This document shows, piece by piece, positions 3,001-32,632 of a stretch of 42,651 nucleotides of DNA. Position 1 is the stretch's first letter. The number at the start of each line of letters is the position of its first letter. Below the pieces are notes generated by a model. That model made no database searches. It saw nothing but the letters and a program-made list of their open reading frames with translations, and was not told where the DNA came from. The translations under genes were made by a program, and so were the position numbers. Source of the DNA: Prescottella subtropica (GTDB taxonomy: Bacteria > Actinomycetota > Actinomycetes > Mycobacteriales > Mycobacteriaceae). The stretch covers positions 1-42,651 of the forward strand of contig NZ_SKCH01000030.1 of the NCBI RefSeq assembly GCF_005434945.1. Reading direction: 5' to 3'.

Positions 3001-4137
3001 TCAGCTGCCGAAACGCTCGTTCACCTCCGCGGCGGTGAGCCCGTAGTCCTCGAGGGTGTACCGGTGCGCCGGCGCGCGGCCACCGGTCCGGCTCTCCGCA
3101 TGCATGGCCTCCATCGACGCCCGGGCCTGCTCGGAGAACGGAATCGAGAACTGCGAGTAGATCTTCTCGACGGTGCCGAGCGGATCGCCGACGAAGTCGC
3201 CGTACTCGACGTCGACGAACTGCGCCGGGTCGTACTTCGCGCGGGCCGCGGTGAAGTCGTCGAGGCCCCGGGCCCACAGGTCCAGCTGGCTGCGGCCGAT
3301 CACCTCGCCGCGGAACCGGTTCGACCACCCGTCGGTCGCGTGCTCGGCGAGACTGCACATCGACGGGATGATCGTGGTCGGCGGGCGGTGCGTCTGCACG
3401 ACCAGTGCATCCGGGTACACCGCCATCAACTCGTCGAGTGCGAACAGGTGACTCGGATTCTTGAGTACCCAGCGGCGGTCCCGATCGGGCAGGCCGATCA
3501 GCTGCAGGTTCTTCTTGTGCCGCGCATACGCGTTGGTCCAGTCCTGACCCTCGAGCCACGTCGAGTACGTCGGCAGGTGGGCCAGGCACTCGTACGACAC
3601 CGACTTGAACGTCTGCCGCAGCAACTGCCAGCACTCCTCGACCTCACCGGCCGACATGTAGTGCACGCCCATGAACTCGGGGTGCTCGACGTGATGCTGC
3701 CCGAACTGCTTCTCGATCGCCGCGAACACCGGGTTCGACTCCCACGTGTCCCGCGGCGGACGTGGCTGCGGCATCTCCGTCAACCACATCTCCAGACCCT
3801 GATGGCCCGGGTCCGCGGTGAGCAGACGGTGCAGCGCGGTGGTGCCGGTGCGCGGCAGTCCGGTCACGAAGATCGGACGGTCGATCGCGACGTCGGCGTG
3901 CTCGGGGAACTGCTTCCACGCCGCCTCCGACAGCAGACGGGCGACCAGAGCGCCACGCAGGAAGACGCGGGAGATCTTACTGCCGAACGGCGTCAGATCC
4001 TCGTCCCGCGCATACGATTCCAGCAGGACACCGAGGGCCTCGGTGTAGTCGTCGACACCGAAATCGGTCAGGCCGGTCATCTTCGTCGCGGACGCGTGCA
4101 GGTCCTCGACGGTACCGACAGTCGTGCGTTCGGTCAT
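3001..4137 (-). CDS. Sulfotransferase (PAPS-dependent)
   Basis: This 378-residue protein transfers a sulfo group from PAPS to an unknown hydroxyl or amine acceptor. The 5'-phosphosulfate-binding loop reads IFVTGLPRTGTTALHRLL with the glycine at residue 93. A later segment (RWVLKNPSHLFALDELMAVY, then VVQTHRPPTTIIPSMCSL) corresponds to the 3'-phosphate-binding region of the bacterial Sulfotransfer_3 type. The length fits. From memory it resembles M. tuberculosis Rv3529c, and the next two upstream genes match Rv3530c and Rv3531c in type and approximate size. It is the last gene of a leftward three-gene operon starting at 6134, 43 bases after the SDR stop. PAPS synthesis and PAP removal genes lie on the other side of the shared control region. 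Confidence 0.9.
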   Translation of the reverse strand: MTERTTVGTVEDLHASATKMTGLTDFGVDDYTEALGVLLESYARDEDLTPFGSKISRVFLRGALVARLLSEAAWKQFPEHADVAIDRPIFVTGLPRTGTTALHRLLTADPGHQGLEMWLTEMPQPRPPRDTWESNPVFAAIEKQFGQHHVEHPEFMGVHYMSAGEVEECWQLLRQTFKSVSYECLAHLPTYSTWLEGQDWTNAYARHKKNLQLIGLPDRDRRWVLKNPSHLFALDELMAVYPDALVVQTHRPPTTIIPSMCSLAEHATDGWSNRFRGEVIGRSQLDLWARGLDDFTAARAKYDPAQFVDVEYGDFVGDPLGTVEKIYSQFSIPFSEQARASMEAMHAESRTGGRAPAHRYTLEDYGLTAAEVNERFGS

Positions 4138-4180
4138 TATTCCCTCTCAGTGTTGTCCGGTCGTTCCGCAGGCTCCACTC

Positions 4181-4963
4181 CTAGTGATGGAATTCGCCGC
4201 AGTTGACGTCGAGGCACTGCCCGGTGATCGCGGACGCCATCGGCGACGACAGGAAGATCACCGCGTCGGCGACCTCCTCGGTGGTCGGCAGACGCTTGAG
4301 ATCGCTGGCCGCGGCGGTGTGTTCGTAGATCTGCTCGATCGTGATCCCGAACTTGTTCGCCTGATGTTCGAAGTACTGCTTCAGGGTGTCACCCCAGATG
4401 TAGCCGGGAGCAACGGAATTGACGCGGATACCCTGCGGGCCCAGTTCGGTGGCCAGGGACTGCGACATCGCGAGCAGCGCCGACTTCGCCAGCTTGTAGC
4501 TGCCGTACCGTTCCTGGGAGTGCCGCACCACCATCGAATTGACGTTCACGACGGAGCCCTTCGACTCGGCCAGTGCCGGCGTGAACAGTTGCGTGAGCCG
4601 CAGTGCGCCGAGGACCGTCAACTCGACGGCGTCCCGGATGTGCTGGAAGTCGGTGCGCGCGAACGGCTTCATCGACGGCACCCTGAATGCGTTGTTGATC
4701 AGACCGTCGACCCGGCCGTAGGCGTCGAGTGCGGTGGCCGCCAGGTTCTCCGCCGACGCCTGATCGGTGATGTCGGTGGACACCGTCACGGCGCGGCGGC
4801 CCAGGTCGGCGACCTCCTTGGCGACCTCGTCGAGGCGTTCCTGGGTGCGGGCGGCGAGTACCAGGTCGGCGCCGGCTTCGGCACAGCGCAGCGCGAGGGT
4901 GCGGCCGAGTGCCGGTCCCACGCCGGAGACGACGACGATCTTGTCCTGCAACAGATTCGACAT
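4181..4963 (-). CDS. SDR family NAD(P)-dependent oxidoreductase
   Basis: A classical short-chain dehydrogenase of 260 residues. The cofactor motif is SGVGPALGRT (Gly14, Gly16, Gly20), followed by LINNAFRV. The catalytic region has Ser in VNVNSMVV and the YxxxK pair in RYGSYKLAKSALL, and the C-terminus ends ITGQCLDVNCGEFHH. I chose the ATG at 4963 because the Rossmann fold begins immediately after it; an in-frame upstream extension is antisense to the neighbouring gene and unlike SDRs. The gene starts four bases after the DUF1214 stop, so the two are probably translationally coupled. It probably oxidises or reduces a hydroxyl/keto group on the same substrate that the sulfotransferase modifies, which is inferred from context. 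Confidence 0.93.
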   Translation of the reverse strand: MSNLLQDKIVVVSGVGPALGRTLALRCAEAGADLVLAARTQERLDEVAKEVADLGRRAVTVSTDITDQASAENLAATALDAYGRVDGLINNAFRVPSMKPFARTDFQHIRDAVELTVLGALRLTQLFTPALAESKGSVVNVNSMVVRHSQERYGSYKLAKSALLAMSQSLATELGPQGIRVNSVAPGYIWGDTLKQYFEHQANKFGITIEQIYEHTAAASDLKRLPTTEEVADAVIFLSSPMASAITGQCLDVNCGEFHH

Positions 4964-4967
4964 GTGT

Positions 4968-6134
4968 TTACCCCAGCATTCGGTCGGCGACGGCGGCTCG
5001 GCGCGCCGCGATGCGGGCGGCGTAGTCCTCCGGCGTGATGGTGTTGTGATCGTGGAACGGCAGGGCCGCGGCGACGTCGTCGACCTTGACGACCTCGACG
5101 GTCGGGCCGTCGGCGGGCGTGAACGCGCGCGACGTGCGCTGCCACCGGAACTGCAGGTAGCCGCGGGGGTGGCCGAGGGCCTCGAGCCAGTTGGTGACAC
5201 CGGGATTGCGTTCGGACAGGACCATCCGGATCATGCCGTCCGGATCGACCTGGGCCTGAGCGTTGTTCAGCGACGTCTGGTGGTCCAGGTAGTCCAGCGA
5301 GATGTACCACAGGCTACCCAGCTGGAAACCCTGGTACGGCGCATCGGATTTCGGGACGGTGATGATCATCGCCTCGTCGTCGGCGAGTTCGTAGTGGCCC
5401 ACCGACGAGTACTGTGTGGCCAGCCCTCCCGGCGTCAGGCGCGGCGCGGTCATGGTGTTGACCGGCAGGGTGTCGTAGAACCACTGCGGGAACTGCAGCC
5501 ATGTCTTGACCCGTCCGACCAGTGCCTTCCCGGCGCGGGCGAACCGCTTCTCGGTCTCCTCGCGGGTGAGCGCCGGCGGCGGCACCCCGATCCGGTCGGC
5601 GCGTTCGATGCGGATGGTGCCGCGCCGCTGGCTCCAGTCGCTGTACACCTCGCGGACCACGAGCTGCGACGATCCGGGCGCGAGCGTGAAGTGGTTGCGG
5701 CGGCCGTCCGCCGGACCCGGGCCGAACGTGGCGACGAAGCTGCCGTCGTCCTCGAGGTGCAGTTCGCGGTCGTCGAACGCGATCTCGCTGCCCGGCACGT
5801 TGGCGTTGGTGTAGTTGCCGCTGAGTACCTGGAAGCTCAGATCCGCGGTGGTGCCGCGGGTGCCGGTGACGATGTACTCGGCGTCGTCGTTGATCCGGGT
5901 GCCGAAGTACAGCGTGTCCGGGTTGTCGAGTCCCATCTTCGTGAACGGGCCGGTCCCGGAGAGGAAACTCGGATGGGTCTTCTCCGTCGCCCACGCGGCG
6001 TGCACGGTCGCGAGGATGCCGCCGGCGAGGTACTGCATGCCCTCGAGGAGGTCCTGTTCGGACCGGATGTGGGGGGCGTCCGCCACGAGCTTCTCGGCCT
6101 CGGCGATCGCCTCGGCGAGTGGATCCGTCAGCAC
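4968..6134 (-). CDS. DUF1214-type protein, first gene of the sulfotransferase operon
   Basis: The 388-residue protein has no signal peptide or transmembrane segment. Its middle is rich in beta strands (NPDTLYFGTRINDDAEYIVTG, then LSFQVLSGNYTNANVPG) and its C-terminal part reads LGSLWYISLDYLDHQTSLNN and PDGMIRMVLSERNPGVTNWL. This pattern is typical of DUF1214/DUF1254-like proteins, whose biochemical role is not settled. From memory it corresponds to Rv3531c of M. tuberculosis (similar size, same neighbours), which lies in the KstR-controlled cholesterol region. The ATG at 6134 follows GAAGGAG on the coding strand, a good ribosome site. Function in the sulfation locus is unknown; a substrate-binding or hydratase-like role would be a guess. 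Confidence 0.78.
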   Translation of the reverse strand: MLTDPLAEAIAEAEKLVADAPHIRSEQDLLEGMQYLAGGILATVHAAWATEKTHPSFLSGTGPFTKMGLDNPDTLYFGTRINDDAEYIVTGTRGTTADLSFQVLSGNYTNANVPGSEIAFDDRELHLEDDGSFVATFGPGPADGRRNHFTLAPGSSQLVVREVYSDWSQRRGTIRIERADRIGVPPPALTREETEKRFARAGKALVGRVKTWLQFPQWFYDTLPVNTMTAPRLTPGGLATQYSSVGHYELADDEAMIITVPKSDAPYQGFQLGSLWYISLDYLDHQTSLNNAQAQVDPDGMIRMVLSERNPGVTNWLEALGHPRGYLQFRWQRTSRAFTPADGPTVEVVKVDDVAAALPFHDHNTITPEDYAARIAARRAAVADRMLG

Positions 6135-6155
6135 ATCGTGCTCCTTCGATCAGGT

Positions 6156-6171
6156 GGTACAAATATGTACC
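6156..6171. promoter_or_regulatory. 16-bp palindromic operator O1 (GGTACA-N4-TGTACC)
   Basis: GGTACAAATATGTACC is a perfect 6-bp inverted repeat with a 4-bp spacer, in the intergenic region between the leftward DUF1214 operon and iclR. A copy with 15 of 16 identical bases occurs before cysD at 7228-7243. The natural candidate binder is the IclR protein encoded between the two sites; this is inference. Confidence 0.6.
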
Positions 6172-6201
6172 CAAGTGGTAGATCGCGTCGTGATCCGACG
6201 A

Positions 6202-6215
6202 TAGAACGTGTTTCA
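6202..6215. promoter_or_regulatory. KstR-like box in the DUF1214/iclR intergenic region
   Basis: TAGAACGTGTTTCA fits every fixed position of the published KstR consensus TnnAACnnGTTnnA. It lies 11 bases before the IclR ATG and touches its AAGGAG ribosome site, and is about 70 bases from the divergent DUF1214 start. KstR represses cholesterol catabolism genes in mycobacteria and rhodococci. Binding here is inferred. Confidence 0.5.
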
Positions 6216-6226
6216 AGGAGTGGTCA

Positions 6227-7165
6227 ATGATCTCTGCAGAATCCACCGGTGCCGCCGAACCCGGCGGCCGCCGTTCCCCGCCCACCGCGCGGGTCGTGCA
6301 GGTGATCGACTACCTGGTCGCGCGCCCCGACCAGCGGTTCGGGCTGTCCGAACTCGCCCGCACCCTGGGGATCAGCAAGCCGACATGCCTGGGCATCGTG
6401 TCCGAACTGGCCGCGGCCGGGTACCTCACCCGCGACCCGCGGGAGAAGACGTACGGCCTCGGACCCGCGCTCATCGCGGCCGGTCGGGCCGCGCAGCGCG
6501 GCTTCGCGGTCGGTGCGATCGCCCGCGCCCACCTCGAGGGGCTCGCCGCCGAGTACGGCGCGGTGTGCACGGCGTCCACCGTCGTCGGCGACCAGGTGAC
6601 GATCCTCGAGAACGTCACCCCGCCCGGAGTGGCGCTGGGGCGCACCGCCGCCCGGGCCGGACAGTCCTACCCGTTCGCGCCGCCCGTCGGACTCATGTAC
6701 GTGATCTGGGACGGCGACGACGACCTCGAGGCGTGGCTGCGCCGCGAACCGGCCCTGCCCGTCGTGCTCGACCGGGATCTGCTCGCCCGTGTCGTCGACG
6801 ACTGCCGTCGCGCCGGCTATCTCGTCGAACGGCTCACCCCGGTCGGCCGCAAACTGTTCTCGCTCATGGCCGGGGTCGCCGGGCGGGACCTGCCGGCGGA
6901 ACTGAAGGAGTTGATCGGCGAGGTCGTCTCCAGCCTCGGCGAGCGCGTCTACCTCGCCAGCGAGACCGCGGCCGACGTCGACTATCCGGTCAGCCTCGTC
7001 GCCGCACCCTGCTACGACAGCGACGGGCGTCAGGCGCTCGTGCTCACTCTCGACGTCGGCGGATCCGTCAGTGGTGCCGAGATCGCCCGGCGCGGCGCGG
7101 CCCTCGTCGCGGCCGCCGATGCGGTGACCGCGGAGATCGGGGGCCGCCCGCCGGTGCGTGCGTGA
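6227..7165 (+). CDS. IclR family transcriptional regulator
   Basis: The 312-residue protein has the two-domain IclR architecture. An N-terminal winged helix covers residues ~20-85 (VVQVIDYLVARPDQRFGLSE, with recognition region TLGISKPTCLGIVSELAAAG and wing YLTRDPREKTYGLGPAL). The C-terminal effector-binding domain runs to the end and contains CTASTVVGDQVTILENVTPP. The ATG at 6227 follows AAGGAG. It sits between the sulfotransferase operon and cysD-cysNC-cysQ, and both flanking control regions carry the same palindrome, so it is the obvious local regulator of both arms. The ligand is unknown. The M. tuberculosis trio that I liken this locus to has, as far as I recall, no adjacent IclR gene. 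Confidence 0.93.
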   Translation: MISAESTGAAEPGGRRSPPTARVVQVIDYLVARPDQRFGLSELARTLGISKPTCLGIVSELAAAGYLTRDPREKTYGLGPALIAAGRAAQRGFAVGAIARAHLEGLAAEYGAVCTASTVVGDQVTILENVTPPGVALGRTAARAGQSYPFAPPVGLMYVIWDGDDDLEAWLRREPALPVVLDRDLLARVVDDCRRAGYLVERLTPVGRKLFSLMAGVAGRDLPAELKELIGEVVSSLGERVYLASETAADVDYPVSLVAAPCYDSDGRQALVLTLDVGGSVSGAEIARRGAALVAAADAVTAEIGGRPPVRA

Positions 7166-7169
7166 ACCA

Positions 7170-7198
7170 TTGACCGCGGGTGGAACGCGTTCTATTCT
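7170..7198 (+). promoter_or_regulatory. cysD promoter (TTGACC-N17-TATTCT)
   Basis: A canonical pair: TTGACC at 7170-7175, 17-bp spacer, TATTCT at 7193-7198. Transcription would start near 7205, leaving a ~60-base leader that contains operator O2. The KstR-like box sits inside the spacer and overlaps the first two bases of the -10. Confidence 0.6.
7181..7194. promoter_or_regulatory. KstR-like box inside the cysD promoter
   Basis: TGGAACGCGTTCTA fits all fixed positions of TnnAACnnGTTnnA and contains the perfect palindrome GAACGCGTTC. It lies between the -35 and -10 hexamers, where a bound repressor would block RNA polymerase. Identity of the binder is inferred from the consensus. Confidence 0.5.
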
Positions 7199-7214
7199 CG
7201 GCGCACAGGAGCAT

Positions 7215-7248
7215 TATGAACCGAATCGGTACAAATATGAACCGAATC
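7215..7248. promoter_or_regulatory. Operator O2 and 21-bp-spaced direct repeat in the cysD leader
   Basis: GGTACAAATATGAACC at 7228-7243 matches operator O1 except at one base. In addition TATGAACCGAATC occurs twice (7215-7227 and 7236-7248), 21 bases apart, i.e. two helical turns on the same DNA face. This arrangement suggests binding of more than one regulator dimer just downstream of the inferred cysD transcription start. Confidence 0.55.
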
Positions 7249-7266
7249 TCCGTGGAGGAGTTGCGC

Positions 7267-8193
7267 GTGACATCCCCGACATCCCCGCCCGCCTACGAGC
7301 TGACGCACCTGCAGGCGCTCGAGGCCGAGGCGGTCCACATCTTCCGTGAGGTCGCCGCGACGTTCGAGCGTCCCGGCCTGCTGTTCTCCGGCGGCAAGGA
7401 CTCGGTCGTGATGCTGCATCTCGCGGCCAAGGCGTTCTGGCCGGCGCGCGTGCCGCTGCCGGTGATGCACGTCGACACCGGCCACAACTTCGACGAGGTC
7501 GTCGAGTTCCGGGATCGGACCGTCGACCGTCTCGGCCTGCGCCTCGTGGTCGCGAGTGTCGAGGACGACATCGCCGCCGGCAACGTCGTCGAGGAGACGG
7601 GTCCGCGGGCGAGCCGCAATCGGCTGCAGACGCATTCGCTGCTGCGCGGTATCCGGGAGAACCGGTTCGACGCGGTGTTCGGCGGGGCCCGCCGCGACGA
7701 GGAGAAGGCCCGCGCCAAGGAACGCGTCTTCAGTTTCCGGGACGAGTTCGGGCAGTGGAATCCCAAGGCCCAGCGCCCCGAACTGTGGAGCCTGTACAAC
7801 GGCCGGCACCGCAAGGGTGAACACATCCGGGTGTTCCCGCTGTCCAACTGGACCGAACTCGACATCTGGCAGTACATCGCGGAGGAGAACATCGAGCTGC
7901 CGGACATCTACTACGCGCACCGGCGCCGGGTCGTCGAACGTGACGGAATGCTGTTGGCGCACACCCGGTTCCTGACGCTCCTTCCAGGCGAAGAGTCCCG
8001 GGAGGAACTCGTCAGATTCCGCACCGTCGGCGACGCCACCTGCACCGGCTGCGTCGAATCGAGTGCAGCGACCGCCGACGAGGTCGTGACCGAGGTCGCG
8101 GCCAGTCGCATCACCGAACGGGGCGCCACCCGCGCCGACGACCGGATCTCCGAGGCCGGCATGGAAGATCGCAAGAAGGAGGGGTACTTCTGA
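7267..8193 (+). CDS. cysD: Sulfate adenylyltransferase subunit 2 (ATP sulfurylase small subunit)
   Basis: CysD condenses ATP with sulfate to adenosine 5'-phosphosulfate (APS), driven by GTP hydrolysis in its partner CysN. The PP-loop motif SGGKDSVV lies at residues 41-48 after LLF, followed by the family segments VPLPVMHVDTGHNFDEVVEF, FGGARRDEEKARAKERVFSF and SNWTELDIWQYI. The product ends MEDRKKEGYF, the usual CysD terminus. I chose GTG 7267 because GGAGGAG (7254-7260) is six bases upstream; this gives 308 residues, normal for the family. Longer in-frame starts would run through the promoter and operators. The TGA overlaps the cysNC ATG by one base. In M. tuberculosis cysDN also lies a few genes before argS, so this position looks ancestral. 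Confidence 0.97.
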   Translation: MTSPTSPPAYELTHLQALEAEAVHIFREVAATFERPGLLFSGGKDSVVMLHLAAKAFWPARVPLPVMHVDTGHNFDEVVEFRDRTVDRLGLRLVVASVEDDIAAGNVVEETGPRASRNRLQTHSLLRGIRENRFDAVFGGARRDEEKARAKERVFSFRDEFGQWNPKAQRPELWSLYNGRHRKGEHIRVFPLSNWTELDIWQYIAEENIELPDIYYAHRRRVVERDGMLLAHTRFLTLLPGEESREELVRFRTVGDATCTGCVESSAATADEVVTEVAASRITERGATRADDRISEAGMEDRKKEGYF

Positions 8194-10049
8194 TGGTGCA
8201 CACCCGGCAACTACTGCGCGTCGCGACCGCGGGCAGCGTCGACGACGGCAAGTCCACCCTCATCGGACGGCTGCTGTACGACTCCAAGTCGATCTTCGAG
8301 GACCAGCTCGAGGCTGTCGAACGCAGCAGCCGTGACCGCGGCGCCGAGCACACCGACCTGGCGTTGCTCACCGACGGGCTGCGTGCCGAACGCGAGCAGG
8401 GCATCACGATCGACGTCGCGTACCGCTACTTCGCGACGCCGCAGCGCAAGTTCATCATCGCCGACACCCCCGGCCACGAGCAGTACACCCGCAACATGGT
8501 CACCGGGGCGTCGACGGCGGACCTCGCGCTGATCCTCGTCGACGCCCGCAAGGGCATCCTCGAGCAGACCCGTCGGCACGCGTTCCTGTCCACGCTGCTC
8601 GGCATCCCGCACCTGGTGCTGTGCGTCAACAAGATGGACCTCGTCGACTGGTCGCAGGAACGGTTCGAGGAGATCAAGGACGAGTTCGCGCAGTTCGCCA
8701 CCAAGCTCGACGTCCGTGACCTCACGTTCGTCCCGGTGTCGGCGCTCGAGGGCGACAACATCGTCACCCGCACCGAGAACATGCCGTGGTACGAGGGGTC
8801 GTCGCTGCTGCACCACCTCGAGGAGGTGCACATCGGCTCCGACCGCAACCTCATCGACGCCCGACTGCCCGTGCAGTACGTGATCCGCCCGCACCAGCAG
8901 ACCGATGCCGACCTGCACGACTTCCGCGGCTACGCCGGCACCGTCGCGAGCGGCGTGTTCAAGCCGGGCGACGAGGTGGTCGCGTTGCCGTCCGGGTTCA
9001 CCTCGACCATCTCGGCGATCTGGGGGCCGGGCGGGCAGCCCGTCACCGAGGCGTTCGCGCCGTCCGCGGTGTGCGTGCAACTCGCCGATGAGATCGACAT
9101 CAGCCGCGGCGACACCCTGTGCCGGCCGAACAACCGGCCGCTCGTCGGGCAGGAACTCGACGCGATGGTGTGCTGGCTCACCGAGGCGTCGTCGCTGCGA
9201 CCCGACGCCCGCTACACCGTCCTGCACACCACCCGTGCCACCAAGGCGCAGGTCGCGCGGCTCGACTACCGGCTCGACGTCAACACCCTGCACCGCGACG
9301 AGACGGCACAGTCGCTGTCGCTCAACGAGATCGGACGCATCCAGCTGCGCACTCAGCAGCCGCTGATGTTCGACCCGTACCGACGCAACCGGGTCACCGG
9401 CAGTTTCCTGCTGGTCGACGACGCCACCGGCAACACCGTCGCCGCCGGCATGATCACCGGGCCGACCCTGTCGGACTCGAAGGTGGTGTGGCACGCGGCC
9501 GCCGTCTCCCGCGACGAACGCGCCACCCGCGGCACGACGGTGTGGCTGACGGGACTGTCCGCGTCCGGGAAGTCCACGGTGGCAGTCGAACTCGAACGAC
9601 GCCTCATCGCCGCCGGGGTACCCGCCTACCGGCTCGACGGCGACAACCTGCGGCACGGGCTCAACGCCGACCTCGGGTTCGGGGCACAGGATCGTGCCGA
9701 GAACGTCCGCCGGGTCGGGGCCGTCGCGCACCTGCTCGCCGACGCCGGACTAGTCGCGGTCGCGTCCCTCATCAGCCCGTACCAGGAGGATCGGGAGAAG
9801 GTGCGACGCCTGCACGAGGAGGCCGGACTGCCGTTCGTCGAGGTGTTCGTCGACACCCCGCTCGCACAGTGCGAGGCCCGCGACCCCAAGGGCATGTACG
9901 CCAAGGCGCGCGCGGGGGAGATCACCGGGTTCACCGGTGTCGACGACCCGTACGAGGCCCCCGGGAACGCCGAGGTGGTGCTGCGCCCCGACGATGGCGA
10001 TCCGGTCGCGCAGGCCGCGAAGATCATGGAGTATCTGGGGCTGTGCTGA
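8193..10049 (+). CDS. cysNC: Bifunctional sulfate adenylyltransferase GTPase subunit / APS kinase (CysN-CysC fusion)
   Basis: The 618-residue protein joins the CysN GTPase and CysC APS kinase, so the operon makes PAPS, the sulfo donor, in one complex. CysN covers roughly residues 1-445: P-loop GSVDDGKST (14-22), DTPGHEQYTRNM from Asp91, NKMD (146-149) and EF-Tu-like barrels. CysC covers about 446-618: P-loop GLSASGKST (454-462), the APS region LDGDNLRHGLNADLGF and the segment ISPYQEDREKVRRLHEEAGL. Size equals the mycobacterial fusion. The kinase P-loop is intact, so PAPS rather than only APS is expected. It starts on the cysD stop (TGATG) and its own stop overlaps the cysQ start. Confidence 0.97.
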   Translation: MVHTRQLLRVATAGSVDDGKSTLIGRLLYDSKSIFEDQLEAVERSSRDRGAEHTDLALLTDGLRAEREQGITIDVAYRYFATPQRKFIIADTPGHEQYTRNMVTGASTADLALILVDARKGILEQTRRHAFLSTLLGIPHLVLCVNKMDLVDWSQERFEEIKDEFAQFATKLDVRDLTFVPVSALEGDNIVTRTENMPWYEGSSLLHHLEEVHIGSDRNLIDARLPVQYVIRPHQQTDADLHDFRGYAGTVASGVFKPGDEVVALPSGFTSTISAIWGPGGQPVTEAFAPSAVCVQLADEIDISRGDTLCRPNNRPLVGQELDAMVCWLTEASSLRPDARYTVLHTTRATKAQVARLDYRLDVNTLHRDETAQSLSLNEIGRIQLRTQQPLMFDPYRRNRVTGSFLLVDDATGNTVAAGMITGPTLSDSKVVWHAAAVSRDERATRGTTVWLTGLSASGKSTVAVELERRLIAAGVPAYRLDGDNLRHGLNADLGFGAQDRAENVRRVGAVAHLLADAGLVAVASLISPYQEDREKVRRLHEEAGLPFVEVFVDTPLAQCEARDPKGMYAKARAGEITGFTGVDDPYEAPGNAEVVLRPDDGDPVAQAAKIMEYLGLC

Positions 10050-11173
10050 CCGACACCGAACTGGCCGCCGACCTCGCCGCCCGCGCCGGCACCCTGCTGC
10101 TCGAGTTGCGGTCCCGCGAACTGGGGGAGACGCCGCTCGACCCGGCCGCAGCCAAGGCACTGAGCCGCCACGGCGACCACGCCGCGAACACCCTGCTGCT
10201 CGCGGAACTCGCGGCGGCCCGCCCCGGCGACGCCGTCCTGTCCGAGGAATCCGCGGACGACGCTGCCCGCCTGGACAATCCGCGGGTATGGATCATCGAT
10301 CCGCTCGACGGGTCCCGCGAGTACGGGCTGCCCGGACGCGCCGACTGGGCCGTGCACGTCGCGCTGTGGGAGCGTGACGGGGAACGGGGCAGCGGCATCA
10401 CCGCGGCCGCCGTCGCGCAACCCGCACGAGACGAGGTGTACGTCAGCGGCGTCACCCGGGCAGCGACCACATACAGGGACCGCCCGCGGATCGTGGTGAG
10501 CGACAGTCGTCCCCCCGACTTCGCGGCCGAACTGGCCCGGAAAGTCGACGGCGAGATCGTGCCGATGGGATCGGCGGGGGCGAAGGCGATGGCCGTGGTG
10601 CGCGGCGACGCCGACGCCTACGTGCACGCCGGCGGGCAGTGGGAGTGGGATTCGGCGGCCCCGGTCGGGGTCGCCCTCGCCGCCGGACTGCACTGCTCCC
10701 GCATCGACGGCACCCCGTTGCGCTACAACGAGGCCCACCCGTACCTGCCGGACCTGCTGATCTGTCGCCCCGACCTGGCGCAGCCACTGCTCGACGGGAT
10801 CGCCGAGCTCACCGGCACGGCACCGCAGGACAGCCCCCGGGTCGCGATGGCCCGCGAATACGTCCGCGCCCTCGTCACCCACGACGCGAGCAAGGTGCGA
10901 CTCGCCCGGCACTGCCGCCGCTTCGAGAACGGGCAGGCCACCGGCGAGTCCGGCGACGAGATCCGCGGAATGCTCGAGACCGGGGCGCAGTACCGGCCCA
11001 TCACCGGTGTCCGCGACCTCGAGTTCCACGAGTGGGGCACGGACGTCGTCGCCCGCTTCCTGCTCGACATGACCGCCGGCCACGACACGCTGACGGTCGC
11101 GATCACGGAGCACTTCGCGATCGGCGGCGCCGAGATCGACGCGGTCACCGCGGTCATCGAACCACCGCGGTGA
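10043..11173 (+). CDS. cysQ: CysQ-type PAP phosphatase fused to a C-terminal NTF2/SnoaL-like domain
   Basis: Residues 1 to ~262 are a Mg-dependent inositol-monophosphatase-fold phosphatase. Metal ligands are visible in VLSEES (Glu68, Glu69), DPLDGS (from Asp86) and WEWDSAAP (Asp203). CysQ converts PAP, the sulfotransferase by-product, to AMP and can reverse PAPS build-up. The protein does not stop there: residues ~263-376 (VAMAREYVRALVTHDASKVR, HCRRFENGQATGESGDEIRG, EFHEWGTDVVARFLLDM) look like an NTF2/SnoaL-like (DUF8021-type) domain. Plain CysQ is about 250-270 residues, so the 376-residue form is unusual. I chose GTG 10043, which overlaps the cysNC stop (GTGCTGA). The gene ends nine bases from the convergent emb stop with no terminator between. 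Confidence 0.88.
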   Translation: MLTDTELAADLAARAGTLLLELRSRELGETPLDPAAAKALSRHGDHAANTLLLAELAAARPGDAVLSEESADDAARLDNPRVWIIDPLDGSREYGLPGRADWAVHVALWERDGERGSGITAAAVAQPARDEVYVSGVTRAATTYRDRPRIVVSDSRPPDFAAELARKVDGEIVPMGSAGAKAMAVVRGDADAYVHAGGQWEWDSAAPVGVALAAGLHCSRIDGTPLRYNEAHPYLPDLLICRPDLAQPLLDGIAELTGTAPQDSPRVAMAREYVRALVTHDASKVRLARHCRRFENGQATGESGDEIRGMLETGAQYRPITGVRDLEFHEWGTDVVARFLLDMTAGHDTLTVAITEHFAIGGAEIDAVTAVIEPPR

Positions 11174-11182
11174 CCGCCGACG

Positions 11183-14100
11183 TCAGAACCGCAGCGTCAT
11201 CGGCCCCGGATTCCACAGGCCCGACCGGGATTCGGTGACGGTGGTGAGCTCCGCCGGCACCGCCGACTCGTGGCGCGGCGTGAACTGTTCGAGCTGACCC
11301 CAGTCGCGGCGCCAGTCGTGGTTCAGGTACGACGGGATCGTTCGTGCCTCGAGCAACTGGTCGGTCCAGCCGAGCGGGCCGCCACCGAAGTGGTCCTGCC
11401 ACAGGTTCGTCGAGATCGCGCCGGCACGGTCCGGCATGATCCGGAACTGCGGGACCTCCGCGACCCCACCGTGGTGGGTGAACGGCTGCTGGCACGGGAA
11501 CTGCAGGCCCACCGCCCAGTCCGCGAGGACCGGGGTGTCCGAGCCGACGACGTCGTTCAGGATCTGCGTCTGCGGCACCCGCGGGGGAGTGACGGCCAGC
11601 CACTGATCGGGGTCCCGGTTGTCGTCGGACGCGACGATACGGACCGCATCGGCCTCGATCGGCAACTGCTCCAGCGGGACCCGCAGGTTCCGCCACGACG
11701 GTGCCGGACCGATGTCGAGCGGGGCGACCTGTCCGAGGACGGTCACCGAGCCGCCCGGCTGCCGGACCCCGTACTCGACGGCCAGCTCCTGACCGGGGGT
11801 GACGATGCCGTCGGGATCGACGGTCCGGATGCGTCCGGCCGCGGCGATCGACACGAGATCGCCGCGGGTGCCGTTCTCGCCGACCGCCGGCAGCCCGTAC
11901 CAGCCGCTGACGAGGGTCGCCGCCGTCTGGTCGCCGCGGCTGTAGCTGCCGAGGACCGGGGTGGTCGCGGGATCGAGGCCGTACGGCAGGGCCACACTGC
12001 TGCGGTTGACGCCGGTCGCGCCCTCGCCGCCGCCGGTACCGGCCGAGGAGTCGGTGGCGGTGGTGTTGTCGTTCGTGTCCACGAGGTTCGGTGCCGCCGT
12101 CGACTCGTCGCCGGCGTCGGCCTTGAGGTCGGAGGCCACACCGTTCGGGGTGAACCCGGTCGACTCGGAACCGGCCAGCGCGAGCGCGACCTCCCCCGAC
12201 AGGGGACGCAGCATCGACGCATTGGGGTCCATCTCGAGCAGGACGTCGTTCGCCAGACCACAGTTCTGTCCGCGCAACGCGTCGACGTTCGAGCGGGCCA
12301 GCGAGTACGCCGGATACTGCGACACCGCGCCCTTCGCGAGCGACAGGATCTCGAACAGCACGACGGCCGCGGCCGCGATCGTCAACGGTGGCAGCGCCCA
12401 GATCCGGCGACTGCGGGAGCCCGGCGCGGGGACGGCAGATTCCCGCAGATGGCACCAGGCGGCGACCGCGAGCATGCCGATCGACCCGGCCAGCAGCAGC
12501 GTGGCGGCGCCGATCCCGCTGACCGACGGTGGCTTGTCCCACCACGGCACGCCGTACGCGGAGACGTACCACCAGCCGTTCGGGCCGTTGAACGTGATCG
12601 CGAGCAGGAACAGCACCGCGGCCGCGAACAGTGCTCGGTTCCGGGGTGACCGGAGGACCGCGGTGCCGACGGCCACCGACGCCAGGACGGCGAGAGCGCC
12701 CGCCAGACCGGCGTAGATGCCGAGATGATGCGTCCACTTGGTGGGGGTGAACATCATCAGTGCGACCGCGCCGAGGGTGATCGCGATGATCCGGCGGGAC
12801 GGCCCGGACGCGGTGCCCGGGATGCGTCCCCCGTTCCGCAGAATCGTGACGATGCCGACGACGATCGCCAGGAACATCGCGAAGATGCCGAACCGGCGGG
12901 CCAGGGAGCCGTCCGGGGCGATGTTGAGCAGCCACTGGTAGCGCAGGAACTCGGTCGTCCAGTTCTCGTTCGGACCGGCGGCGACGTGCGCGTCCTGCAT
13001 CACCGGGACCGCGGCCAACGTCTGGTCGGCGAAGATCGCGACCAGGATCGCGGTGCCGGACGCGACGATCGGCAGCAGCACCGCCGCATAGCCGACGGTT
13101 TTCGCGCGGGCGACGACGATCCGCAGCAGCGGACGCCCCCCGGCGAGCAGGGCCGCGAAACAGATGAGCCCGGACGGTCCCACCGACAGCGTCGCCGCCG
13201 CCACCAGGATCGCCACGGCCGCCGGCAGCAGCCGCCGCGTCGCGATCGCCCGCTCGATCGAGCACCACGTCAGCAGCACACCGGCCGCGACGATCGGTTC
13301 CGGGCGCAGCCCGTTGTTGTACGGCAGCCACACCGCGAGGAACCCGAGGGCGCCGGTCCACAGCGCCAGCCGGCTCGTACGTGCCGCGACACCCAGACGC
13401 GGCACCACCTCACGGCTGAGCACCATCCAGGTCACGATGCCCGCCAGCAGTGCCGGCAGCCGCACCCAGATGCTCGCGCTCCAGATGTCGTCGAGCAGAC
13501 CGAAGATCTGGTAGTAGGGGGTGCCGAACGGGGTCTCGGGCACCCCGAAGTAGCGGAAGTAGTTCGACATGTAACCCGACGACTGCGCCGACCGGGCCAT
13601 CGTGAACTGGTAGCCGTCGTCGGCGGTGGTCGCACCGATGAAATGCCACAGCACGAGCGTGCCGATCACGGCGGCGTCGACACGCCCGAACCGCCACCAG
13701 CGGGAGGGCAGGAACCGGCGGGACCGGCGGCCGTCCGCGCAGTCGATGCGATGCAGCGCCACCAGACTCAGCAGTGTCGCCAGGACGGCGACGATCATCG
13801 CGACCAGCTTGATCGCGGTCGGTGACGACGAGAACCGGGTATCGAGTTCGGCGTGCACCGACAACCCGGCCGGGGCTGCACCGTCGAGATCGGTGAAGAC
13901 CCCGACCATCTGCGGGCGGACGTCACCGTCGACGGTCTTCGTCGCAGCCGACTCGGTGACCGACGAACCGGTGATCGACGCGACGGTGCGGGTCGCGTCC
14001 GACGAGATCTCCACCGCACAGTCCGGGCCGGACAGCTGCGACAGCGGCACCGACAGCAGCGACGTGTCCCGCAGGATCACCTCGAACCGTGCGGGCGCGT

Positions 14101-14488
14101 CGTCCGTCGCGGCCACCGTCCTCGCGACGAGACCGTACTTCTCGGCACCGGGTGCCCCACCCGGCATCGTCGAGGCGACCAGGCCGCCGGAGGAGAGACC
14201 GCGGACCGTCGCGCACGGAATCCGCGCATCCAGCGACATCGGCGCATACGACACCAGCGGCGCCTGCACACTCGTCGTGACATCGTTCTGCGGCCACGAC
14301 AGCGACGACTGCTCCTGCTGCACCGGTAGCAGCGGGATCGCCACCGCGCACAGCACACCGATCACCGCCGCGACGATCGCGACCAGGCGGGCACGGCGCA
14401 GATCCCACCACGACGGGTGCCCGTCGTTCGTCGGTTCCGGTTGTCTCTTCACGGGCAGCGGTTGCGTCCCCACCATGCTGTCGACCAC
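11183..14488 (-). CDS. Emb-family arabinosyltransferase (EmbA/B/C type)
   Basis: A very large membrane glycosyltransferase of the GT-C fold that adds arabinofuranose from decaprenyl-phosphoryl-arabinose to arabinogalactan or lipoarabinomannan. An N-terminal membrane segment (RLVAIVAAVIGVLCAVAIPL) precedes an extracytoplasmic domain. The catalytic acidic pair is in TTADDGYQFT (Asp290-Asp291). Many membrane helices follow, then a long C-terminal carbohydrate-binding-like domain ending SGLWNPGPMTLRF. Length (~1100) matches Emb proteins. The start is uncertain: the ATG at 14533 overlaps the divergent gene's start codon; I prefer GTG 14488 because TACCAT (14502-14497) lies eight bases before it, fitting a leaderless transcript; ATG 14476 is also possible. 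It is a lone copy here; EmbA, B or C cannot be decided. Confidence 0.9.
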   Translation of the reverse strand: MVDSMVGTQPLPVKRQPEPTNDGHPSWWDLRRARLVAIVAAVIGVLCAVAIPLLPVQQEQSSLSWPQNDVTTSVQAPLVSYAPMSLDARIPCATVRGLSSGGLVASTMPGGAPGAEKYGLVARTVAATDDAPARFEVILRDTSLLSVPLSQLSGPDCAVEISSDATRTVASITGSSVTESAATKTVDGDVRPQMVGVFTDLDGAAPAGLSVHAELDTRFSSSPTAIKLVAMIVAVLATLLSLVALHRIDCADGRRSRRFLPSRWWRFGRVDAAVIGTLVLWHFIGATTADDGYQFTMARSAQSSGYMSNYFRYFGVPETPFGTPYYQIFGLLDDIWSASIWVRLPALLAGIVTWMVLSREVVPRLGVAARTSRLALWTGALGFLAVWLPYNNGLRPEPIVAAGVLLTWCSIERAIATRRLLPAAVAILVAAATLSVGPSGLICFAALLAGGRPLLRIVVARAKTVGYAAVLLPIVASGTAILVAIFADQTLAAVPVMQDAHVAAGPNENWTTEFLRYQWLLNIAPDGSLARRFGIFAMFLAIVVGIVTILRNGGRIPGTASGPSRRIIAITLGAVALMMFTPTKWTHHLGIYAGLAGALAVLASVAVGTAVLRSPRNRALFAAAVLFLLAITFNGPNGWWYVSAYGVPWWDKPPSVSGIGAATLLLAGSIGMLAVAAWCHLRESAVPAPGSRSRRIWALPPLTIAAAAVVLFEILSLAKGAVSQYPAYSLARSNVDALRGQNCGLANDVLLEMDPNASMLRPLSGEVALALAGSESTGFTPNGVASDLKADAGDESTAAPNLVDTNDNTTATDSSAGTGGGEGATGVNRSSVALPYGLDPATTPVLGSYSRGDQTAATLVSGWYGLPAVGENGTRGDLVSIAAAGRIRTVDPDGIVTPGQELAVEYGVRQPGGSVTVLGQVAPLDIGPAPSWRNLRVPLEQLPIEADAVRIVASDDNRDPDQWLAVTPPRVPQTQILNDVVGSDTPVLADWAVGLQFPCQQPFTHHGGVAEVPQFRIMPDRAGAISTNLWQDHFGGGPLGWTDQLLEARTIPSYLNHDWRRDWGQLEQFTPRHESAVPAELTTVTESRSGLWNPGPMTLRF

Positions 14489-14496
14489 GAGAAGCG

Positions 14497-14502
14497 ATGG
14501 TA
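14497..14502 (-). promoter_or_regulatory. -10 element of the emb gene (leaderless start)
   Basis: TACCAT on the leftward strand fits TANNNT and ends eight bases before the GTG at 14488, so transcription would begin at or next to the start codon. No Shine-Dalgarno precedes the candidate starts. Inference from spacing. Confidence 0.4.
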
Positions 14503-14531
14503 ACGGCAATCCACCCGGTAGAAATTCGTGC

Positions 14532-15566
14532 ATGAAGGTCTACACCGGAACCGATGCCGCAGCCGATCTCGCCACCGTCGCCGCCACGGCCCGCCGCGCG
14601 GAGGCCGCCGGATACGACGGCCTGCACGTTTCCGAAACCGTGCACGACCCGTTCCTGCTCGCCCTCGCCGCTCTGCAGGCAACCGAACGGATCACGGTCC
14701 GCACCTCCGTTGCGCTGGCGTTCGTCCGCAGCCCGGTCGCGGTCGCCTACACCGCGTGGGACCTGGCGGCAATGTCCGGCGGACGCTTCCACCTGGGTCT
14801 CGGCAGCCAGATCCGGCAGAACATCGAGGAGAGGTATGCGGCGTCGTGGTCGGCGCCTGCACCCCGCATGCGCGAGTACGTCCGCACACTCCGGGCGGTG
14901 TTCGAGACGTTCCGCACAGGCGAGTTGGTGCCGGAGGTCGGGGAGCACTACCGGTTCACCCGGATGCAGCCGTACTTCAACCCTGGACCGGACGCCGACA
15001 CGCCGGCACCCCCGATCTACCTCGGCGGCGTCGGACGACGCATGTGCACGGTCGCGGGGGAAACCGCGGACGGGCTGATCACCCACCCCACCAACACCGA
15101 CACCCGCTACCTCGTCGACGAGTGCCTGCCCGCACTGCAGACCGGGGCCGGTGCCCGACCGCTCGACACGTTCGAGGTGGTGGCGGGACTGCAGGTGGTC
15201 ACCGGCGCCACCGACGACGCCGTCACCGCCGAACGCGAACGCCGCCGCCGACTGTTCGCGTTCCTCTACTCCACCCCCGCCTACCGCGGCGCCCTCGAAC
15301 GGCACGGCCACCCGGACCTGCAGGACACGCTCGCGGACCTCGTCCGACACGACCGCTGGGACCGACTCCGCGACGTCGTCACCGACGACATCCTCGGGAC
15401 GTTGGTGCCCACCGCCCGCTACGACCGCCTCGCCGACGTGATCCGCGAACGCCTCGAACCGGTCCGCGCGTTCGGCGTGTCGACCGGGGTGACCCTCGCA
15501 TTGCCGGAGAATCCGGACCACGACCGGTTCGTCGCCGACGTCGTCGCCGAACTGCAGCAGATGTAG
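14532..15566 (+). CDS. F420-dependent LLM-class oxidoreductase
   Basis: The 344-residue protein is a luciferase-like (TIM-barrel) oxidoreductase, probably of the TIGR03617 F420-dependent group. Typical segments are the start MKVYTGTDAAADLATVAATA, then AAGYDGLHVSETVHDPFLL, ITVRTSVALAFVRSPVAVAY, WDLAAMSGGRFHLGLGSQI and PIYLGGVGRRMCTVAGETAD. Such enzymes use reduced F420 to reduce or oxidise varied substrates; the substrate is unknown. No signal peptide. The ATG lacks a ribosome site, and TAGAAA (14519-14524) seven bases upstream suggests a leaderless message. The start codon overlaps the longest possible start of the divergent emb gene. A membrane protein follows after 18 bases and may be co-transcribed. 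Confidence 0.9.
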   Translation: MKVYTGTDAAADLATVAATARRAEAAGYDGLHVSETVHDPFLLALAALQATERITVRTSVALAFVRSPVAVAYTAWDLAAMSGGRFHLGLGSQIRQNIEERYAASWSAPAPRMREYVRTLRAVFETFRTGELVPEVGEHYRFTRMQPYFNPGPDADTPAPPIYLGGVGRRMCTVAGETADGLITHPTNTDTRYLVDECLPALQTGAGARPLDTFEVVAGLQVVTGATDDAVTAERERRRRLFAFLYSTPAYRGALERHGHPDLQDTLADLVRHDRWDRLRDVVTDDILGTLVPTARYDRLADVIRERLEPVRAFGVSTGVTLALPENPDHDRFVADVVAELQQM

Positions 15567-18986: not shown

Positions 18987-18992
18987 TAAGAT
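18987..18992 (+). promoter_or_regulatory. -10 element of argS (leaderless start)
   Basis: TAAGAT fits TANNNT and ends eight bases before the argS GTG at 19001, placing the transcription start at the start codon. No ribosome-binding site precedes the GTG, as expected for a leaderless message. Confidence 0.5.
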
Positions 18993-19000
18993 TGACTCCT

Positions 19001-20653
19001 GTGACTCCAGCCGACCTTGCCGAACTGCTCCGAGGGACCGCCGCGAAAGTGCTCGCCGAGCACGGACTCGACGTGTCCGTACTGCCCGCGACACTGACGG
19101 TCGAGCGTCCCCGCAACCCCGAGCACGGTGACTACGCCACCAATGTGGCGATGCAGGTCGCCAAGAAGGCCGGCGCCAACCCGCGTGAACTCGCGACGTG
19201 GCTCGCCGCTGCGCTGGCGGCTGCCGACGGGATCGAGTCGACCGATGTCGCCGGCCCCGGATTCATCAACATCCGCCTGGCCGCGGACGCGCAGGGCGCG
19301 ATCGTCGGCAAGGCGCTCGAGGCGGGTGCCGCGTACGGCAACGGCGACGCACTGGCCGGGAAGCGCATCAACCTCGAGTTCGTGTCCGCGAACCCGACCG
19401 GCCCCATCCACCTCGGTGGCACCCGGTGGGCGGCCGTCGGTGACGCGCTCGGCCGGATCCTGGCCACGCAGGGCGGCGACGTCACCCGCGAGTACTACTT
19501 CAACGATCACGGCCGGCAGATCGACCGGTTCAGCAACTCGCTGGTCGCGGCCGCGCTCGGTGAGCCGGCCCCCGAGGACGGCTATGCGGGCGACTACATC
19601 GAGGACATCGCCGCCCAGGTCCTGAAGCAGGCGCCGAACGCGCTCGATCTGCCCGAGGACGAGCGCCGCGAGGCGTTCCGTGAGGTCGGCGTCGAGTTGA
19701 TGTTCGCGCACATCAAGCGCACCCTGCACGACTTCGGCGTCGACTTCGACGTCTACTTCCACGAGAACTCGCTGTTCGAGTCGGGTGCCGTGGAGCGGGC
19801 CGTCGACACCCTCAAGGGGTCGGGCAACCTGTACCACGAGGACGGCGCCTGGTGGCTCAAGAGCACCGACTACGGCGACGACAAGGACCGCGTCGTCATC
19901 AAGTCCGACGGTGACGCCGCCTACATCGCCGGCGACATCGCCTATTTCCAGGACAAGCGGTCCCGAGGCTTCGACCTGTGCATCTACATGCTCGGCGCCG
20001 ACCATCACGGCTACATCGGACGCCTCAAGGCCGCCGCGGCCGCGTTCGGCGACGATCCGGACACCGTCGAGGTCATGATCGGCCAGATGGTGAACCTGGT
20101 CCGCGGTGGTGTCGCGGTGAAGATGAGCAAGCGGGCCGGCACCGTCATCACCCTCGACGACCTGGTCGAGGCGATCGGCGTCGACGCCGCCCGCTACTCG
20201 CTGGTGCGCTCGTCGGTGGACCAGAGCATCGACATCGACCTCGAGCTGTGGGCGAGCACCACCAACGAGAACCCCGTCTACTACGTGCAGTACGCGCACG
20301 CCCGCCTGTGCTCGATCGCCCGCAATGCCGCCGAGCTGGGCCTGAACTCGGCGAACCCGAACCTGGGTCTGCTCGTCCACGACCGTGAGGGCGACCTGAT
20401 CCGCACGATCGGCGAGTACCCGCGCGTCGTCGCGAAGGCCGCCGACCTGCGTGAGCCGCACCGCATCGCCCGCTACCTCGAGGAGCTCGCGGGCACCTAC
20501 CACCGCTTCTACGACGCCTGCCGCATCCTGCCGCAGGGTGACGAGGAGGCCGGCGACCTGCACACCGCGCGTCTGGCCCTGTGCGACGCGTCCCGTCAGG
20601 TCCTCGCGAACGGTCTGGGACTGCTCGGCGTCTCCGCCCCGGAGCGGATGTGA
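19001..20653 (+). CDS. argS: Arginyl-tRNA synthetase
   Basis: Class I aminoacyl-tRNA synthetase charging tRNA-Arg. The HIGH motif appears as [15 protein letters not shown] and the KMSKS motif as VKMSKRAGT. The C-terminal anticodon-binding domain runs from [20 protein letters not shown] to the end ([11 protein letters not shown]). GTG 19001 gives [17 protein letters not shown], a typical start and 550 residues, the same length as I recall for the mycobacterial enzyme. A TTG nine bases earlier is possible but less likely. It opens the argS-lysA-hom-thrC-thrB operon and overlaps lysA by four bases (GTGA). Confidence 0.98.
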
Positions 20654-32598: not shown

Positions 32599-32632
32599 CC
32601 CGATCCTGGAACACGTTCCAGGTAGAATCGGG
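32599..32632. promoter_or_regulatory. 18-bp perfect palindrome abutting a -10 hexamer ahead of atpB
   Basis: CCTGGAACACGTTCCAGG (32605-32622) is a perfect palindrome whose core fits TnnAACnnGTTnnA. TAGAAT (32623-32628), a good -10, follows directly. CCCGAT (32599-32604) and ATCGGG (32627-32632) extend the symmetry as a hairpin with a 4-base bulge. The nearest -35-like TTGACG is 24 bases upstream, too far for a standard promoter. Probably the atpB operon promoter with an operator; binder unknown. Confidence 0.5.

Follow-up and report, generated by a model that had tools for sequence, protein, structure and literature searches.

A predicted sulfation module in Prescottella subtropica with candidate operators for KstR and a local IclR-like regulator

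The window analyzed here is a 42,651-nucleotide stretch of Prescottella subtropica DNA (RefSeq assembly GCF_005434945.1, contig NZ_SKCH01000030.1, positions 1 to 42,651), which contains a compact set of seven genes at 3001-11173 (contig C24 of the 4.40-Mb genome). A leftward arm codes for a DUF1214-like protein, a short-chain dehydrogenase/reductase (SDR) and a sulfotransferase, and a rightward arm codes for CysD, a CysN-CysC fusion and a CysQ-like phosphatase, with the gene for an IclR-like regulator between them. Comparisons of sequences, promoters and gene neighborhoods suggest that these genes form a dedicated sulfation module under the dual control of KstR and the local IclR-like protein, a reading to which we assign a probability of roughly 0.7. 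The initial annotation of the window had placed all the named genes within 8 kb, where they are indeed present, and had proposed a dedicated, regulated sulfation system. This proposal is borne out, at the level of sequence, by the presence of a single adenosine 5'-phosphosulfate (APS) kinase match and a single PF13469 match in the genome and by regulatory motifs common to both arms.

The leftward arm, on the reverse strand, comprises the DUF1214-like gene (4968-6134), the SDR gene (4181-4963, beginning with the ATG at 4963) and the sulfotransferase gene (3001-4137), whose product reaches 199.9 bits against PF13469 (cut-off 27). The SDR is over the cut-offs of PF13561 and PF00106 as well as of NF005909 (432.4 bits, cut-off 258). 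The DUF1214-like protein remains below that of PF06742 (18.1 bits against 25, which a paralogue in locus L155 passes with 26.3), and by sequence it matches the structure 6ans (E 3.9e-30). The IclR-like gene (6227-7165, forward strand), proposed to encode the local regulator of both arms, is so named because its helix-turn-helix passes PF09339 (28.5 bits, cut-off 22), whereas its effector region falls short of IclR_C, PF01614 (19.6 bits, cut-off 24). On the forward strand follow CysD2, the small subunit of ATP sulfurylase (7267-8193; TIGR02039, 455.4 bits, cut-off 396.6), with a GTG start after GGAGGAG; the fusion of CysN2, the large subunit, with the APS kinase CysC (8193-10049; NF004035, 973.6 bits, cut-off 715); and a CysQ-like phosphatase of 3'-phosphoadenosine 5'-phosphate (PAP) or 3'-phosphoadenosine 5'-phosphosulfate (PAPS) at 10043-11173, whose GTG start, read from the sequence, gives a 7-bp overlap with the end of cysNC. 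The latter is identified by PF00459 (91.6 bits, cut-off 27) together with its context, since the best NCBIfam match, TIGR01331, attains only 75.8 bits against a cut-off of 228.8. Hence, the earlier labels are upheld for the sulfotransferase, SDR, cysD and cysNC, while DUF1214, IclR_C and CysQ lie below their specific cut-offs. The description as a redox partner is not borne out for the DUF1214-like protein. The CysQ-like protein ends in a tail of 114 residues (approximately 10829-11173), which recurs in many Rhodococcus and Prescottella loci, has no Pfam match at E 0.1, and was not found with CysQ in Antrihabitans (L042, L062) or Speluncibacter (L016).

The predicted promoter of the leftward arm (6198-6227, reverse strand) consists of TTGACC (6227-6222), an 18-nt spacer and TATCGT (6203-6198), and that of cysD-cysNC-cysQ (7170-7198, forward strand) of TTGACC (7170-7175), a 17-nt spacer and TATTCT (7193-7198). 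In both, the -10 element and spacer are overlapped by a predicted KstR operator matching TnnAACnnGTTnnA, at 6202-6215 on the reverse strand and 7181-7194 on the forward strand, with the motif definition taken from PMC1995591. A tightened form of the motif, TNRAACNNGTTYNA, has 27 sites genome-wide as opposed to 2 for a reversed control, and one of these adjoins kstR, between it and a divergent acyl-CoA-dehydrogenase-like gene, a divergent arrangement described for mycobacteria and Nocardia farcinica (PMC1995591). The genome encodes KstR itself (L145), which scores 335.3 bits against NF033703 (cut-off 280) and matches KstR in the PDB with E 5.8e-87. A 206-residue open reading frame in L142 was discarded as a candidate KstR, since it matched nothing in the PDB at E 0.001 nor any NCBIfam model at 1e-10. 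A third KstR-like site, TGGAACACGTTCCA, lies at 32607-32620 of the window, far from the module.

To place these motifs in a comparative setting, we used the best 80 of the 165 stretches that encode a relative of the sulfotransferase among 84,980 species genomes; counts over these loci favor close relatives, which are not independent of each other. Those for DUF1214 omit L034, where the contig edge intervenes (n = 79), and those for cysD refer to the 73 loci with CysD. The strict KstR motif lies 5' of the DUF1214 gene in 73 of 79 loci and 5' of cysD in 49 of 73, against a total of 139 sites in all the fetched loci together (1.63 Mb). Both arms display the same promoter order, namely TTGACC, the KstR site over the spacer and -10 element, and then a palindrome described below. 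The distance from the KstR half-site to the start of the palindrome is 45 bp (cysD) and 42 bp (DUF1214) in the window, and in relatives it is 40-47 bp at cysD and 36-44, mostly 41, bp at DUF1214. The combination of TTGACC with a KstR half-site is seen at DUF1214 in 56/79 loci, at cysD in 63/73 and at both in 46/73, and just once elsewhere in the 1.63 Mb. These figures were obtained with a spacing of 5-15 and a slightly altered half-site, since a first version of the pattern (spacing 8-13), which missed the cysD promoter of the window, gave 32/79, 49/73, 18 with both, and one elsewhere; further relaxation of the -35 element gives 59, 63 and 7 elsewhere. A looser TTGACC-KstR form is present at cysD in 15 of the 18 Nocardia loci. 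Both the KstR motif and the palindrome were first noticed in the window, on inspection or from a known consensus, and were examined in relatives afterwards; the window itself does not count as an independent test. As to co-expression of the two arms, the lack of which the initial annotation had listed as a refuting result, both carry the two predicted operators in the same order and at near-equal spacing and may be under shared regulation.

The second shared element is a palindrome of the form GGTNCA-W4-TGNACC, which we propose as an IclR-type operator. One copy, GGTACAAATATGTACC (6156-6171), is situated between the DUF1214-like and IclR-like genes, 3' of the DUF1214 promoter, and the other, GGTACAAATATGAACC (7228-7243), in the cysD leader, upstream of the GTG start. 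When one mismatch is allowed, GGTNCAWWWWTGNACC has two sites in the 4.4-Mb genome, both at the module, and a reversed-pattern control has one. An exact search of 24 further genomes recovered 23 sites in 15 genomes, all of which belong to the module locus by their coordinates (reversed control 0). A looser form, GGTNCA-N4-TGNA[AC]C, accompanies 66 of the 67 loci with the IclR-like gene and 1 of the 12 without it (79 loci; the Fisher test of this association ignores kinship). In genome G238 (L136:2454-7222) approximately 4 kb separates cysD from the IclR-like gene, yet both palindromes are kept. This retention, taken together with the tracking of the gene by the palindrome, links the latter to the IclR-like regulator, and the predicted operators suggest that this protein has a one-locus regulon with two targets. 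In the Mycobacterium-like genome G230 (L129:7107-9232), a 49% identical IclR-like gene is divergent to the trio of the leftward arm, and the gap between them contains a KstR motif and a degenerate palindrome.

The arrangement is not confined to one strain, since the DUF1214-like gene is found beside the sulfotransferase in 79 of the 80 loci, the SDR in 77, CysD and an APS kinase domain in 73 each, the IclR-like gene in 67 and CysQ in 51. It recurs in Rhodococcus, Prescottella, Nocardia, Amycolatopsis, Saccharopolyspora and further families, whereas the initial annotation had named an adjacency unique to one strain as a result that would refute its proposal. Of 249 genomes of the order, drawn separately, 64 encode the sulfotransferase (E <= 1e-80), and 63 of these also an APS kinase. 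Outside a genus denoted g2, the kinase lies within 10 kb of the sulfotransferase in 24 of 36 genomes; the 12 exceptions include some that lie close to the end of a contig or in a fragmented genome. A g2 sulfotransferase scores 734 bits against Stf1 of Mycobacterium tuberculosis, and g2 is therefore almost certainly Mycobacterium. Other arrangements are represented by L128 (8614-11134) and L039 (6800-8034), where cysQ alone is divergent to the trio and no cysD or cysNC match was seen in the fetched stretch, and by G214 (L130:6858-12793), where cysD-cysNC and the trio constitute one co-directional run that is free of the strict KstR motif.

The window sulfotransferase is 90% identical to its counterpart in Prescottella equi DSM 20307, Prescottella and Rhodococcus being the nearest named relatives of the genome. 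Its best match, in the sequence search (E 2.1e-171) as well as by fold (63% identity), is PDB 2zq5, titled 'sulfotransferase STF1 from Mycobacterium tuberculosis H37Rv'. By these comparisons the window enzyme is an orthologue of M. tuberculosis Stf1 (Rv3529c). Across 31 aligned sequences the loop L94-P95-R96-x-G98-T99-T100 and the residues R251 and S259 are invariant, and we take them to bind PAPS. A profile search shows it to be the only PF13469 match of the genome, in which PF00685 has no match. PF09037 has none either, although the control of that search was also blank; the same model does detect Stf0 in L154. In a 44-row tree, four g2 sulfotransferases nest inside the window type, while the three enzymes of a paralogous run form a separate clade (100/100). 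This co-directional run, cysQ-cysD-cysNC-SDR-sulfotransferase-DUF1214, was sought in four chosen loci and found in three, namely those of P. equi DSM 20307 (L155:3586-10582), Rhodococcus sp. HNM0569 (L156:4471-11411) and R. erythropolis NBRC 15567 (L157:3376-10358). Because some 0.4-0.5 kb lies free ahead of the SDR match, the run need not be a single transcript. Its products are 54-55% (sulfotransferase), 49-50% (SDR) and 28-31% (DUF1214) identical to those of the window, and the APS kinase of the run in HNM0569 replaces one at the module locus, while in the other two hosts it lies away from that locus. The run thus shares all six gene types with the window, differing in its sulfotransferase clade and in having neither regulatory motif. 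By the strict patterns, L154-L157, which represent two other types of cysDNC locus, contain neither the KstR motif nor the IclR-type palindrome. The formation of a unit by the same six gene types on two occasions argues that the SDR and the DUF1214-like protein belong to the sulfation chemistry.

The sulfotransferase and KstR co-occur across genomes. KstR is over its cut-off in 70 of the 249 genomes, and these include all 64 sulfotransferase genomes, which span five families (Fisher 5e-53, a value that ignores kinship). The trio lies 9 kb from kstR in G224, 49-116 kb from it in 19 of the 28 g2 genomes, where both are on one contig, and, in the part of the non-g2 genomes that was covered, from 45 kb to 6.2 Mb in nine others where one contig contains the two. 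This co-occurrence favors a sterol-derived alcohol, ahead of an envelope lipid, as the probable acceptor, an assignment that we hold at somewhat better than even odds. The steroid link suggested in the initial annotation is supported by both the KstR motifs and this co-occurrence.

Several observations weigh against the reading of a sterol-linked sulfation module. We know of no textbook sterol step that needs sulfation. Six genomes with KstR over the cut-off have no sulfotransferase, and nine more, all of family f9, combine a KstR-like match below the cut-off with no sulfotransferase. An APS kinase within 10 kb of the sulfotransferase is absent from all 28 g2 genomes (30 gene copies, a few near contig ends) and from all five genomes of g29, a genus of family f14 to which L128 belongs. 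In none of the 18 Nocardia loci is cysD preceded by the strict KstR motif or by the palindrome, and the exact palindrome is missing in 9 of the 24 genomes searched, among them the two Nocardia genomes, that of Saccharopolyspora and G230 of g2. Further, a paper on the steroid transcriptome of Saccharopolyspora hirsuta mentions neither a sulfotransferase nor a sulfate adenylyltransferase by those words, and Kendall et al. have argued for a KstR regulon broader than cholesterol (PMC1995591).

The latter proposal also lends weight to the alternative that survives best, according to which the module is dedicated to sulfation of a cell-envelope lipid, quinone or glycolipid, and growth on sterols or lipids does no more than turn it on. 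Precedents for such acceptors exist in the literature on mycobacteria, where Stf0 is described as starting sulfolipid-1 and Stf3 has been proposed to sulfate menaquinone, and the paralogous run, being free of the KstR motif, indicates that the chemistry is not inherently tied to sterols. On the other side stand the presence of KstR in every sulfotransferase genome and the location of the trio in a Mycobacterium-like genome (L127, g2) among kstD, 4-hydroxy-2-oxovalerate aldolase, acetaldehyde dehydrogenase and lipid-transfer/thiolase genes, although a lipid partner beyond the genes of the window itself could be missed. We accordingly regard an envelope acceptor as unlikely.

Structure prediction and fold search did not reveal the function of either the DUF1214-like protein or the sulfotransferase. 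The former yields a mostly β-stranded model (predicted local distance difference test, pLDDT, 86.7), whose best fold match is the uncharacterized 6ans (template modeling score, TM, 0.79), with weak matches to VPA0106 and VPA0735. The model of the latter is only fair (pLDDT 69.8), and at low TM-scores it matches the sulfotransferases of curacin and olefin synthases, retinol dehydratase, and tyrosylprotein and cholesterol sulfotransferases. In curacin synthase, the olefin synthases and retinol dehydratase, sulfation provides a leaving group for elimination. Given these fold matches, one could conceive of sulfation as a chemical step of sterol breakdown, in which the SDR would set the hydroxyl, the Stf1-type enzyme would make it a leaving group by sulfation, and the oxygen would then be lost by elimination, perhaps with the DUF1214-like protein as the site. 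We consider this distinctly doubtful; were it true, the paralogous run would act likewise on another substrate, and in mycobacteria the step would fall to the Rv3531c-Rv3529c operon, with PAPS from the general pool.

The distribution of sulfate-activation genes in the genome supports a dedicated function. A genome-wide search detects an APS kinase only in the C-domain of the window CysNC. A second CysD, 63% identical to that of the window, lies elsewhere in a run of like-oriented genes that further comprises a nitrite/sulfite-reductase-like gene (for which every model stays below its cut-off), CysH, a CysN devoid of CysC, and a SirB-like gene (labeled by eye, with no model match at 1e-30). This CysH clears the threshold of TIGR02055, the model for APS reductase (239.1 bits, cut-off 235.3), but not that of TIGR02057, for PAPS reductase (156.7, cut-off 254.2); it also passes broader cysH models named for PAPS reductase. 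It contains CCRLRKVVPL, IGCAPCT and KTECGLH, which correspond to signatures of APS reductase cited for R. qingshengii. Sulfate reduction can therefore run from APS, leaving the PAPS of the module free for sulfation, and the APS kinase is linked to the sulfotransferase and lies apart from the sulfate-reduction genes. The initial annotation had named another cysDNC locus supplying all PAPS as a finding that would undermine its proposal; the second CysD/CysN pair, beside an APS-reductase-type CysH, has no APS kinase.

A role of the cysD arm in general sulfate assimilation was rejected on the basis of this separate operon and the single APS kinase match. A broader version would make cysD-cysNC-cysQ a sulfate-assimilation or sulfur-starvation operon, possibly for indirect sulfite oxidation as proposed for strain IGTS8, and its closeness to the trio incidental. 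The reported finding of CysD2 and Stf0 of IGTS8 only in dibenzothiophene cultures without sulfate (PMC8557817) would fit such a role, as would the location of argS (18992-20653) about 8 kb to the right of the module, if cysDN near argS is an old position. However, the IGTS8 gene order matches that of a different locus (L154), which has neither motif, the host has its cysH-cysD-cysN operon elsewhere, the two motifs are common to both arms, and the adjacency holds in two-thirds of the genomes outside the Mycobacterium-like genus, all of which make this explanation very unlikely. The least probable explanation, that another TetR-type or other regulator uses the KstR motif matches and the module is co-regulated with no sterol link, can appeal to a second KstR-like protein below the cut-off in some genomes and to the fact that the KstR sites are motif matches only, but it is countered by KstR itself in every sulfotransferase genome, by the excess over the reversed control in the P. 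subtropica genome with one site beside kstR, and by the published binding of KstR at the M. tuberculosis Rv3531c site.

Under the dual-control reading, CysD2-CysN2 would convert sulfate to APS and the fused kinase APS to PAPS, from which the Stf1-type enzyme would transfer the sulfuryl group to a hydroxyl acceptor, with the CysQ-like phosphatase clearing the PAP left over. The most likely task of the SDR is to form or modify the hydroxyl or keto group of the acceptor, and the DUF1214-like protein may have a catalytic or binding role. KstR would sit over the -10 elements of both promoters and leave once the breakdown of the sterol side chain yields its ligand, while the IclR-like protein, about 45 bp 3' of the KstR site and just past the likely start points, would act as a second, module-specific gate. 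With an APS-reductase-type operon of its own, sulfate reduction need not be fed by the PAPS of the module. KstR binding and derepression in P. subtropica, as well as PAPS turnover, are what we infer from the genome sequence. In many relatives, too, the genes for making PAPS and removing PAP have the predicted switches of the trio, which points to sulfation as the purpose and growth on sterols as the trigger.

Two further genes flank the module. An arabinosyltransferase (Emb) gene at 11183-14533 ends 9 bp from the end of cysQ, and an Emb match adjoins cysQ in 6 of the 80 fetched loci, all Prescottella-like (L002-L005, L028, L061). At the other end, a gene for a PF20091 alpha/beta hydrolase (1494-2885) lies on the same strand as the sulfotransferase, 115 bp 3' of it. 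The hydrolase occupies the same place in Prescottella-like loci, in L012-L014 (R. globerulus and its kin) and in Speluncibacter (L016).

Among known systems, the Stf0-CysD2-CysN2C locus of R. qingshengii IGTS8 is similar in that a dedicated CysD-CysNC adjoins a sulfotransferase, apart from the CysH operon (PMC8557817). It differs in the Stf0 family of its enzyme (PF09037), in its sulfatase, in that no SDR or DUF1214 partner was found beside it, and in having been reported under growth without sulfate rather than with sterol (PMC8557817). Another R. qingshengii strain (L154:4402-9465) has Stf0-cysD-cysNC with a convergent sulfatase gene, in the order of IGTS8 peg167-170, and an identity of the window proteins with CysN2C-CysD2-Stf0 of IGTS8 was discarded, as it is this locus that the order matches. 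The rhizobial nodPQ-nodH genes likewise combine a dedicated ATP sulfurylase/APS kinase with one sulfotransferase under an inducer-specific switch; there the acceptor is the Nod factor, control is by NodD, and the CysQ-SDR-DUF1214 set is lacking.

In the open-access literature we found no paper joining control by KstR with sulfate adenylyltransferase genes, nor one joining a Stf1-type sulfotransferase with sterol chemistry or a defined acceptor. The nearest, in its available text, lists KstR and Rv1285 (CysD) apart, in different tables that describe a kinase-inhibition network, and the main text of the KstR paper contains neither Rv1285 nor cysD (PMC1995591). In the text available, a review counts Stf1 as one of four M. 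tuberculosis sulfotransferases, and papers on Rv3529c cite an effect on host TLR2 signaling, not a metabolite. The closest relative of the leftward arm is the M. tuberculosis Rv3531c-Rv3530c-Rv3529c operon, whose resemblance had been noted at the outset and is now substantiated by the orthology of the sulfotransferases and by published KstR binding. Electrophoretic mobility shift assays showed that KstR binds the Rv3531c/Rv3532 site (12 of 13 tested motifs were bound), and MSMEG_5932, marked as the orthologue, was 6-fold de-repressed in a kstR mutant (PMC1995591). The two systems have in common the KstR motif at the head and the types and order of the genes, which the g2 genomes display as well. 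They differ in that the Mycobacterium-like genomes have no linked APS kinase, whereas in the window module PAPS supply and PAP removal share the motifs of the trio. The KstR motifs on both arms suggest that sulfation is an overlooked part of sterol handling in the relatives of Rhodococcus, and, if this is true, a bacterial sterol regulon that ranks among the best studied would gain a sulfation branch.

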